This document shows positions 31,194 to 58,227 of a DNA stretch of 64,000 nucleotides, piece after piece. Every line of letters starts with the position of its first letter. Within the stretch, counting starts at the first letter, position 1. The stretch covers positions 62,001 through 126,000 of the forward strand of contig JAPLLG010000009.1 in assembly GCA_026387665.1 (NCBI GenBank), in the 5' to 3' direction. Position numbers and translations under genes: made by a program. The notes under the pieces were generated by a model, which searched no databases, was not told where the DNA came from, and saw only the letters and a list, made by a program, of their open reading frames with translations. The stretch comes from Nitrospirota bacterium (GTDB lineage: Bacteria > Nitrospirota > Nitrospiria > Nitrospirales > Nitrospiraceae).

Positions 31194-31221
31194 GATGTAG
31201 TTCTCTTCTTTTTATTTAAAG

Positions 31222-31339
31222 AATGCTCAAAATGGCTTTCCAGCAAGGCCGCAGAGCGTGAGAACCCCGAGGCGTACTGTCACAGTACGTTGAGGGGTTC
31301 GAGCGCTCGAGAACGAAGCTGGAAGCCGTTTTCAGCATT
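31222..31339. repeat. 120-bp repeat, copy 1, inside the atp operon
   Basis: Ends are inverted (AATGCTCAAAATGGC and GCCGTTTTCAGCATT). Shared inner blocks are CCAGCAAGGCCGCAG, GTACGTTGAG and CGAGAACGAAGCTGG, also found at 55551 and 57521. It begins exactly beyond the atpE stop codon and lies between atpE and atpF, so the atp mRNA carries it as a folded spacer. Confidence 0.85.
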
Positions 31340-31570
31340 CTATTTGCGGAGACCCATGATGATGAAGGCAATGACCAGACCGTACAAAGCGATGGCTTCC
31401 ACCAGCGCGAACCCGATCCACATATATTTTCCAACGCGGGCTTCCGCTTCCGGCTGACGCGCCACCGCTTCGATCATCTTCCCGAAGATGTACCCGATAC
31501 CCACACCGGCTCCGGCAAACCCTGCCGCCGCCAACCCCATACCCAACAATGCTGCTGCTGCTGAATCCAT
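31340..31570 (-). CDS. atpE: ATP synthase F0 subunit c
   Basis: Protein of 76 residues, two helices in a hairpin: GMGLAAAGFAGAGVGIGYIFGKMIEAVARQPE, the polar RQPE loop, then YMWIGFALVEAIALYGLVIAF with the ion-binding Glu. The sodium-site residues (Gln in helix 1, Thr or Ser after Glu) are not present, so a proton ring is likely. The stop codon abuts a repeat element on its downstream side. Confidence 0.95.
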   Translation of the reverse strand: MDSAAAALLGMGLAAAGFAGAGVGIGYIFGKMIEAVARQPEAEARVGKYMWIGFALVEAIALYGLVIAFIIMGLRK

Positions 31571-55550: not shown

Positions 55551-55670
55551 GGATGCTCAAAAAGGCTGCCAGCAAGGCCGCAGCGAGTGAAGGCCCGAGG
55601 CGTATCCGGAGGGTACGTTGAGGGTCTGAACGATGCGAGAACGACGCTGGCAGGTTTTTTGAGCATCCTG
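55551..55670. repeat. 120-bp repeat, copy 2
   Basis: Ends GGATGCTCAAAAAGGCTGCC and GGTTTTTTGAGCATCC are inverted. Inner blocks CCAGCAAGGCCGCAG, GGTACGTTGAGG and CGAGAACGACGCTGG match copies 1 and 3. It lies between the GST gene and the YbaK-domain gene; the 415-base gap 55276-55690 has no other supported feature. Confidence 0.85.
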
Positions 55671-55690
55671 CCTACTCCATGGAGGTTGCC

Positions 55691-56176
55691 ATGCCCGTCC
55701 TGAAAAGACTCCAAACCTATCTCGACAGCCACAAGATCCCCTACGAAGCGGTCAGTCATGACGCGGCCTTTAGCGCACGAAGAACGGCTGAAGCCCTCCA
55801 CGTGCGGGGCGAGCTCTTCGCCAAAGTAGTGATCGTCAAAGCAGACCAGCGGTTCGTGACGGTAGTCCTCCCCTCCACCTGGCGGGTGGATTTTAAGCGA
55901 CTCGAGGAGGCGCTGGACAGCAAACATGTGAGGCTGGCAACGGAACGTGAGCTCGCGGAACTCTTTCCCGACTGCGAAGTAGGCACGATGCCCCCCTTCG
56001 GCAATCTCTACAACATGGCCGTCTATGTCGATCAGCTGCTCACGCAAGACGAGCACATCTTCTTCGACGCGGGAACCCATACGGGAGCCATGAAACTTCG
56101 CTACCGAGACTTTGCTGAACTGGTGCATCCCACCGTGGCGCAGTTTCATAGGGAGCCGTCAACGCTCCAGTACTAA
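55691..56176 (+). CDS. YbaK/EbsC-domain aminoacyl-tRNA deacylase-like protein
   Basis: Protein of 161 residues from ATG 55691 behind GGAGG. The YbaK fold appears as VSHDAAFSARRTAEALHVRGELFAKVVIVKADQRFVTVVLPSTWRVDFKRLEEAL, with the conserved Lys in AKVVIVK, followed by LATERELAELFPDCEVGTMPPFGNL and DAGTHTGAMKLRYRDFAEL. The family hydrolyses mischarged tRNA such as Cys-tRNA(Pro) or Ala-tRNA(Pro). Which tRNA this one clears is not seen. Confidence 0.88.
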   Translation: MPVLKRLQTYLDSHKIPYEAVSHDAAFSARRTAEALHVRGELFAKVVIVKADQRFVTVVLPSTWRVDFKRLEEALDSKHVRLATERELAELFPDCEVGTMPPFGNLYNMAVYVDQLLTQDEHIFFDAGTHTGAMKLRYRDFAELVHPTVAQFHREPSTLQY

Positions 56177-56303: not shown

Positions 56304-56332
56304 TTGTTTCGCCGCTCTGTCCATGCTACAGT
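56304..56332 (+). promoter_or_regulatory. Promoter of the predicted small RNA
   Basis: TTGTTT (56304-56309), 17 bases, TACAGT (56327-56332) with an upstream TGC (extended -10). The predicted first base, G56339, is exactly the first base of the hairpin below. Confidence 0.65.
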
Positions 56333-56338
56333 GGTCTT

Positions 56339-56411
56339 GATCGCATAAGACCTTCCGTGTTCGGGGGCTGCAGTCCCCCATTAGACACGAAGTCTCATGC
56401 GATCTTTTTTT
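56339..56411 (+). ncRNA. Candidate small RNA: 66-nt hairpin ending in seven T
   Basis: One long hairpin with all arms complementary: GATCGCAT/ATGCGATC at the base, then AGAC/GTCT, TTC/GAA, GTGT/ACAC, and GGGGG/CCCCC at the top with a CTGCAGT loop; single-base bulges (C52, C56) and an asymmetric internal loop (TC against ATTAG) separate the helices. Seven T follow directly (56405-56411), so the hairpin is also an intrinsic terminator. With the promoter seven bases upstream of its base, this is a self-contained ~73-nt transcription unit. No known family is recognised. No protein frame covers it. Confidence 0.7.
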
Positions 56412-56531
56412 GTCCGCACGCAGCCGTTCTGCATCTGCTGAGCTCTCCGCTTTAGGCGTACCCATCCATCGCTCACATTGCCAGCCCGTCATCGCCGTGG
56501 GGTCGTCCGTTACATTCAAAGAGGTGCATCC

Positions 56532-57593
56532 TTGTTTCTATCCGTATGGTCAACAGTCCGGGCATTCCTGCGCGACGCCGCAGGGAGCCTCTATCACATT
56601 CTTATCGTCGCCATGAGCGCCGGTATTGCGCTCTTGCTGCCGGCAGGGGCCAAACAGTTCTTGTCGTTCTGGTCACGCGTCGAGCATGACAAGCTCTCGC
56701 TCATCGCCGTAGAAATGACGGTGGCGATCCTCCTGATCGTCTGTCTCAACTACGTCCATCGCAGCAAGCGGGACCGGGCCCTCGCCACCGTAGCGACCGG
56801 CGCAGGCCTCGTCTCATTCTTCCCGCGCCGCACGAGGGGGGCGCAGCAACATATCGAGCAACTCAAAGACGAGCAGGGCACGGGCCGGACCATCTCGGTC
56901 ATCGGGTCCAGCGGCCACAGCACCTTTGTGGATCAAGTGGGCGGCCTGTCGTCGGTACTCGACAAATGCCTGGGAGCCAGAATCATGCTGGTGAATCCCT
57001 ACAGCCAGGAAGCGAGCGCACGCATCCAGGCGGTCAACCATCCCGAGTTCACACTGGACACATTCCGGAAAGAAGTCCGGCACAGCATCCAGCTCCTCAA
57101 GCGGCTGAAGGCCATAGGGAAGGACGTCAAACTCAAGCTTTATGCGGATTCCCCGTTGATCAAACTGGTGATCCTGGGCGACTACCTGTGGCTCCAGCAT
57201 TACCATGCCGATCTGGATATCCAGACCATGCCCGAATATGTCCTGCGGCATAACCGCAAGGACCATGGCCTCTATACCCTCTACGCCCACTACTTCGTGC
57301 AGCGATGGGAGAGCGCCGAGTGTCCGGAATATGATTTCGAGACGGACGAGCTGGTCTATCGTACTCGCGCCGGCAACGAGATCCGACGCGAGCAGTTTGA
57401 GATCGAAGCGGCGAACGAAGAAGTTGGAGCCCTGATGGAATCACGAGCCATCACCGTTACTCGGCCGAATCCGAGACCGATAGCCCGTAACGTAAATACA
57501 GAAGCAGAGCCATTCCACCGAATGCTCAAAATGGCCGTCCAGCAAGGCCGCAGGCGAGTCGAAACCGGAGGCATACCCTCAGGGGTACGTTGA
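56532..57593 (+). CDS. Two-helix membrane protein with unknown C-terminal domain
   Basis: Protein of 353 residues from TTG 56532, seven bases after GAGGTG. Two membrane helices (ILIVAMSAGIALLLPAG and IAVEMTVAILLIVCLNYV) are followed by a cytoplasmic domain with GRTISVIGSSGHSTFVD, ARIMLVNPYSQEASARI, KLKLYADSPLIKLVILGDYLWLQHYHADLDIQTMPEYVLRHN. The fold resembles the phospholipase-D-like sensing domains (DUF5919 group), a tentative match. The final 24 residues (from RMLKMAV) are encoded by a repeat element, so the natural C-terminus may have been replaced. Confidence 0.6.
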   Translation: MFLSVWSTVRAFLRDAAGSLYHILIVAMSAGIALLLPAGAKQFLSFWSRVEHDKLSLIAVEMTVAILLIVCLNYVHRSKRDRALATVATGAGLVSFFPRRTRGAQQHIEQLKDEQGTGRTISVIGSSGHSTFVDQVGGLSSVLDKCLGARIMLVNPYSQEASARIQAVNHPEFTLDTFRKEVRHSIQLLKRLKAIGKDVKLKLYADSPLIKLVILGDYLWLQHYHADLDIQTMPEYVLRHNRKDHGLYTLYAHYFVQRWESAECPEYDFETDELVYRTRAGNEIRREQFEIEAANEEVGALMESRAITVTRPNPRPIARNVNTEAEPFHRMLKMAVQQGRRRVETGGIPSGVR

Positions 57594-57640
57594 GGATTTC
57601 GATGAGCCGAGAACGAAGCTGGCGGACGTTTTCAGCATTC
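57521..57640. repeat. 120-bp repeat, copy 3, overlapping a gene end
   Basis: Ends AATGCTCAAAATGGCCG and CGGACGTTTTCAGCATT are inverted; inner blocks CCAGCAAGGCCGCAGG, GGGGTACGTTGAGG and CGAGAACGAAGCTGGCGG match copies 1 and 2. The stop codon of the membrane-protein gene (57591) falls within the GTACGTTGAG block. Confidence 0.85.
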
Positions 57641-57648
57641 TGCCGTGA

Positions 57649-58227
57649 CTAGAAGAGTGGGTGATGCGGACTCGACGTAAACGGCTCTGCGCTTGGCGCA
57701 ACGCCGGCATTGCCGAGAAAACGCCAGGCCCCATCCTCATGGACCAGATAGTGGACCTCCTGGAACCAGCTATCCAGCGTGATCCGCGCGCCGCCCTGGG
57801 ACTCCGTGCCGTACAGCCCGCCGGTGCAGGTGATTTCCGCACGCAGCTGAGACCCGGACCGGAACACCTTCACCACTGAAAAGAGATGGGTGGACGACAG
57901 GTTATGGTAGTGGGTGAAGACTTCGTCCCAGATTCGGCGCACATCCGTCGGCTTCAGGCCATGATAATTGTAGGCCTTGGCATAAAATTGCAGCACCTGG
58001 TCCAGGTCCTGTTTCTGTACGGCGGCTTCGGCGCGACCGAAGGCCGCCAGAATCTCCCGCAGAGCCGGATAGGAGACAACCGCCCTGTGATCCTGGATGG
58101 CCCGGCCATCCACCGTCAATGACACATCAGGGAGAATCTCCACCAGGGCATGGCTCTCTGGCGAGAGCGTCAGCCAGGCGACCGCAAAGACCGTGAAAAA
58201 CAGACACTGTGCCGATCGTCTCGCCAT
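57649..58227 (-). CDS. Secreted NTF2/SnoaL-like protein
   Basis: Protein of 192 residues with a signal peptide (CLFFTVFAVAWLTLSPESHA). The mature part has the alpha-beta pattern of NTF2-like proteins: ALREILAAFGRAEAAVQKQDLDQVLQFYAKAYNYHGLKPTDVRRIWDEVFTHY, then strands ITCTGGLYGTESQGGARITLDSW and FQEVHYLVHEDGAWRFLGN. No catalytic residues are recognised. It reads away from rbgA, and its far end abuts a repeat. Confidence 0.7.
   Translation of the reverse strand: MARRSAQCLFFTVFAVAWLTLSPESHALVEILPDVSLTVDGRAIQDHRAVVSYPALREILAAFGRAEAAVQKQDLDQVLQFYAKAYNYHGLKPTDVRRIWDEVFTHYHNLSSTHLFSVVKVFRSGSQLRAEITCTGGLYGTESQGGARITLDSWFQEVHYLVHEDGAWRFLGNAGVAPSAEPFTSSPHHPLF

Follow-up and report, generated by a model that had tools for sequence, protein, structure and literature searches.

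Results

The locus lies on the forward strand of a Nitrospirota contig, within a window of 64,000 nucleotides (the whole stretch of DNA analysed), and comprises a promoter, a hairpin followed by a T run, a spacer and a protein-coding gene. The predicted promoter (56304..56332) consists of the −35 element TTGTTT (56304-56309), a 17-bp spacing and an extended −10 element, TGC (56324-56326) plus TACAGT (56327-56332). Six bases separate TACAGT from a 66-nt hairpin (56339..56404), the stem starting 7 nt past the −10 element with a first base that is the predicted +1. A tract of seven T directly 3′ of the stem (56405..56411) resembles the tail of an intrinsic terminator, and a conserved, unstructured spacer of 108 nt (56412..56519) leads from there to the ribosome-binding site, whose Shine-Dalgarno sequence AGAGGTG (56520..56526) is conserved in relatives. 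The downstream gene (56532..57593) starts with TTG and, judging from homologues and a structure model, would encode a two-helix protein with a phospholipase D (PLD)-like fold.

The hairpin is built of helices of 8, 4, 3, 5 and 6 bp, among them a basal (56339-56346/56397-56404), a middle (56348-56351/56392-56395) and an apical helix (56363-56368/56373-56378), and is interrupted by an A·C mismatch, single-base bulges and a 5-nt bulge. Its minimum free energy is −33.1 kcal/mol, compared to a mean of −15.7 (sd 2.9) for dinucleotide shuffles, none of which reached equal stability in 200 trials (z = −6.0). An earlier note on this DNA had described the promoter, the hairpin and the T7 run, and all three read as it claimed.

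Among six TTG-N16-18-TGnTAnnnT sites in the 64-kb window, only the leader site precedes a stable hairpin and a T run; T6 runs behind a long stem occur twice, the T run of the leader being one of them, and shuffled windows average 0.0. Simple promoter and terminator scans of the window listed neither the leader promoter, because its −35 element matches at three of six positions only, nor the leader terminator, because its stem is bulged. Since both promoter and pairing are conserved in relatives, as described below, we do not regard the element as a product of chance, in agreement with the earlier argument that a start-site-like promoter, the base of a hairpin and a terminator would not coincide accidentally. 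The statement that no known RNA family fits also held, in that a search of the element against the Rfam 15 covariance models returned no family at the gathering score or at E values up to 5. The element is single-copy in its own genome, where the sole other match comprises 14 bases.

Of 88 leaders, 83 carry the pattern TTG-N17/18-TGnTAnnnT. It stops 5-6 nt short of the hairpin match (8 nt in a single case), and the match itself opens one base ahead of the stem; the frequency of this pattern in shuffled upstream sequence was 0.14%. Above the promoter, by eye, sequence is not conserved in relatives without close identity. Pairing within the hairpin is likewise kept. Across 39 aligned sequences, 86% of cells were paired, compared to 35-53% when partners were slid, and the covariation score of 0.180 exceeded the 0.149 obtained in shuffles (0/500 reached it), which ignore relatedness. 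Among these 39 sequences, pairs in which both sides had changed were no more numerous than in shuffles. Position 7 changes across families from C-G to U-A in 11 of 25 cases, and compensatory G-C/A-U pairs are also seen in the stem. The earlier note had proposed a search for paired changes as a check, and the copies show pairing kept with compensatory changes. Amongst 80 copies, the basal helix formed 7-10 of its 10 pairs in every one, and the apical helix appeared as GGGGG/CCCCC, GGAGG/CCTCC, GAGGGC/GCCTTC and other variants. Total length ranged from about 73 to 84 nt with the arms remaining paired, and the sequence of the 5′ arm, AUCGyGUAAGACCU, varies less than pairing alone would allow.

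We searched for the element with a covariance model built from the 39 sequences, which matched 21 of 32 genomes of the genus, 65 of 175 of the family and 86 of 235 of the order. With BLAST, the region was clearly matched in the majority of genomes from the genus, and for many of these the conserved block starts at the hairpin. The hairpin is present in nearly all collected relatives of the downstream gene, with its first base 181-189 nt before the gene start. With a second covariance model, built from two families of the order (f1 and f2) and applied to 395 genomes of the phylum, matches were confined to these two families and one genome in another order of the class. Weak antisense matches arise because the stem is palindromic, and one weak match to the first model (L130, G025 C124) was taken as chance, being lone and short, with no linked gene found. 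Three genomes (G151, G152 and G097) contain second copies of the element. In divergent genera the hairpin gains about 8 nt and the spacer is unrelated, with the gene linkage kept. Nitrospira moscoviensis has the downstream gene and no hairpin; within the family, 30 of 98 genes or fragments of the downstream type, mostly divergent paralogues, lack an element match. By inspection, homologues of the PLD-fold protein in more distant classes have no such leader.

The element is linked to its gene. In the 175 family genomes, all 68 sense matches stand ahead of a region that matches one protein-family profile, at a distance of 83-126 nt; among them are the second copies of G151, G152 and G097 and the copies of the divergent genera. 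Every inspected copy from outside the family, where the contig was readable, precedes either that gene or one for a SulP protein, a few f2 copies at contig ends having been left out of the gene assignment. The distance from hairpin to gene is fixed in f1, and the upstream neighbours vary in kind and strand. Hairpin and T-tract stand behind a promoter and between the predicted start and the gene, on the same strand and less than 300 nt from the gene start, as in an attenuator, and the association with the gene is constant whatever lies upstream. Because all 68 family sense copies precede one gene, the description of the element in the earlier note as a self-contained small RNA gene stands only in part: its own promoter and terminator can be read from the sequence, but it is not self-contained. 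From this arrangement, we consider the element to be the 5′ leader of its downstream genes and not a free-standing gene.

Family f2 adds a second linked gene. Here, the leader precedes the same PLD-fold gene and also a gene for a SulP-family anion transporter (TIGR00815, PF00916 plus STAS). The two genes are often neighbours: at three f2 loci (L203, L204 and L219), the SulP and PLD-fold genes stand in tandem, and a separate promoter, hairpin and T7 run precede each of them. Two loci (L243 and L244) provide further SulP leaders. In most cases the f2 leader types are gene-specific, with GGATCCAGGAG before the PLD-fold gene and GCATCCGGGAG before the SulP gene. Both linked genes of f2 share the first codons MVxxIVAKIREG, which suggests an old duplication of the leader together with the gene start; the link to two genes could reflect a single duplication of leader plus first codons. 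A SulP protein search in 11 relatives, including the genome of the window, was empty.

To characterize the terminator, we counted T residues behind the stem and calculated the score of d'Aubenton-Carafa. At least six T fall within 8 nt after the stem in 83 of 88 leaders, and the T run stands right behind the stem in three families, reaching T9 at one locus (L241). The window copy scores 31.7 and 65 of 80 copies score above 0; the 15 copies at or below 0 include some with a misplaced stem register. Genus g14, among others, has an interrupted T-tract. At two loci (L165 and L168) the tract is lost, with promoter and hairpin arms partly kept, and such natural mutants could separate the function of the hairpin from that of the terminator. 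Termination is therefore not needed everywhere, and it is mainly these lineages with a weakened T-tract that hold back our confidence in the terminator reading.

The 108-nt spacer is 70-97% identical among many Nitrospira and conserved within groups, a conservation that is not explained by simple attenuation. Folding z values for the spacer were mostly at or above 0, no better than those of shuffles and mostly worse, and paralogous and distant copies keep the hairpin and the linkage with different spacers. A stretch resembling GTGATGGGA / GCCGTGGGG recurs in the spacer, even in distant genera. RNAalifold applied to one alignment (A1) proposed an alternative hairpin in the 5′ half, which is no switch by itself because it is compatible with the basal helix. 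Several further candidates were set aside by inspection: a coding role of the leader, as an upstream ORF or otherwise (neither reading frames nor stop codons are preserved), a loop-spacer pseudoknot GCAG/CUGC (broken in the g14 clade) and an additional promoter TTGC-N16-TG inside the spacer (which lacks a conserved −35 element). Sequestration of the ribosome-binding site by the ACCU arm was also rejected, the arm being complementary but weakly so and showing no covariation by eye.

The downstream protein has two predicted long N-terminal helices followed by the PLD-fold domain and is conserved to about residue 290. A first structure model was too poor (pLDDT 55); one from a wider alignment reached pLDDT 74.7 and matched NucT (Z 10.9 over 132 residues), PLD3 (Z 10.6), TrmBL2 (Z 10.5) and Nuc (Z 9.9), so that the modelled protein falls within the phospholipase D superfamily fold. 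In the alignments, by eye, the catalytic HxK(x)4D motif is absent: around the invariant Lys211 and Asp217, the residue two positions ahead of the Lys is Leu, and Lys and Asp are not spaced as the motif demands. The protein matches no Pfam or NCBIfam family above threshold. At the f1 loci read, the gene starts with TTG or GTG behind AGAGGTG and never with ATG, a non-ATG start behind a strong Shine-Dalgarno sequence being suggestive of translation held at a low level. At its 3′ end the gene extends into one copy of a dispersed repeat of about 123 bp, present in the window at 31220-31341, 55553-55672 and 57522-57644 (76-82% identical); with residues ~331-356 of the protein, tblastn matched similar sequences in other Nitrospira genomes (L067-L081). 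Beyond it, on the reverse strand (57649-58227), lies a gene for an uncharacterised 192-aa protein with a weak SnoaL-like match below the Pfam cut-off.

Discussion

Taken from sequence and structure, the element is probably a previously undescribed cis-regulatory leader RNA, in which a promoter-proximal intrinsic terminator would gate read-through into the gene behind it. RNA polymerase would start at or beside G56339, the first ~66 nt of each transcript would fold into the conserved hairpin, and hairpin plus T7 would act as the terminator, at which most transcripts may end as an RNA of ~70 nt. The remaining fraction would read through the 108-nt spacer and be translated from the AGAGGTG/TTG site into a membrane-anchored PLD-fold protein; in f2, the same kind of leader would also head the SulP transporter. 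With a start at the predicted +1, no transcribed sequence would precede the hairpin, which leaves no place for an upstream antiterminator. Read-through would instead depend on a factor or ligand that acts on the nascent hairpin, with its 5′ arm conserved beyond pairing, or on the elongating polymerase.

The clearest competitor to read-through control takes the element mainly as a 5′ mRNA hairpin, of the kind represented by the ompA leader, a stabilising 5′ stem-loop of bacterial mRNA. It would protect the message or bind a protein, with the U-rich stretch as a binding or landing site and termination as a minor activity. Like the ompA stem-loop, the hairpin would be 5′-terminal and stands in front of a gene; its stem begins at the predicted +1 and would give a blunt 5′ end, the 5′ arm is more conserved than pairing requires, the hairpin-gene distance is fixed in f1, and the interrupted T-tract of g14 and the partly kept arms of the two loci that have lost theirs all fit. 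We nevertheless judge this reading unlikely, since most leader copies, unlike the ompA type, carry a T run behind the stem, in three families, and have mostly positive, terminator-like scores, features that suit a terminator and that a stabiliser would not need. Nor is the inverted repeat well described as a DNA-level palindrome, an operator or cruciform at the promoter: its arms are conserved beside the promoter, but the length variation with arms still paired, the compensating changes that keep the apical helix paired and the strand-specific T run make this very improbable. Least credible, and already contradicted, is a 3′ terminator of the upstream gene; an editing-domain gene does end at 56176 on the same strand, but a conserved promoter intervenes, and across relatives the gene upstream changes and in many cases lies on the opposite strand, while the downstream gene stays constant.

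A different possibility is that the leader encodes a trans-acting small RNA, with or without a cis role. A terminated RNA of ~70 nt is predicted, and promoter and terminator of its own are present as far as sequence can tell, but conservation resides in the paired arms and not in an exposed seed, and the genome of the window has no Hfq gene by a PF17209 search that did give a match in five of the 14 control genomes, including E. coli. Since no Hfq gene was found and the element is never unlinked from its genes, including all 68 family copies, a purely trans-acting small RNA is unlikely; even allowing for an additional cis role, we hold this explanation to be quite improbable. The evidence does not call for it, and a secondary role in trans, as in GraL, may accompany the cis function.

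GraL is, by analogy, also the closest proven case for the leader we propose. In the greA leader of E. coli, transcripts stopped at an intrinsic terminator close to the promoter, inside the greA 5′ UTR, give short RNAs; there is no classical antiterminator, and about two thirds of transcripts are reported to be terminated (PMC6829880). The likeness lies in a promoter-proximal intrinsic terminator within the 5′ UTR of the controlled gene (PMC6829880) and is architectural, with no sequence relation expected. In GraL the terminator is preceded by about 19 nt, its hairpin is small and greA is the single gene, whereas in the Nitrospira leader a bulged, conserved hairpin would form the first 66 nt and the linked genes are two, encoding the PLD-fold membrane protein and the SulP transporter. 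Attenuators and riboswitches, as surveyed in PMC2965389, share a sense terminator within 300 nt of the gene start. They differ in that an aptamer, leader peptide or antiterminator cannot precede a hairpin at +1; with the stem at the predicted +1, no sensor would be transcribed before the terminator, as it is in the classical designs. Nitrospira is not mentioned in the main text of that survey, and the literature searched contained no paper on the Nitrospira leader.

The second linked gene offers a hint at the signal. It shares the SulP family (TIGR00815, PF00916, STAS) with the BicA-type transporters. SulP/BicA-type bicarbonate transporters are described in marine Nitrospira, where they are known as proteins only, the SulP protein of N. 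marina being BicA-like, and the passages on them in that study describe no leader RNA (PMC8115632). Because of the SulP partner and its BicA-like relative in N. marina, inorganic carbon or ion balance is a reasonable first guess at the signal, no more. From the N. moscoviensis transcriptomes small RNAs had been removed, and this species lacks the element. A bolder proposal, which we think unlikely, is that Nitrospirales possess a novel class of regulatory RNA whose terminator is itself the sensor: the hairpin of the first 66 nt would bind a ligand or protein, perhaps reporting inorganic carbon, pH or ion balance, and decide between a ~70-nt RNA and an mRNA without aptamer or antiterminator, and the short RNA might act in trans.

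For the nitrite-oxidising Nitrospira, the finding adds a conserved, family-wide candidate cis-regulatory RNA that is absent from Rfam 15. The shared leader connects SulP transporters with a PLD-fold membrane protein that is uncharacterised, and a terminator at the predicted +1 would leave no room for the usual logic of attenuation, which makes the control of read-through a clean, testable question.
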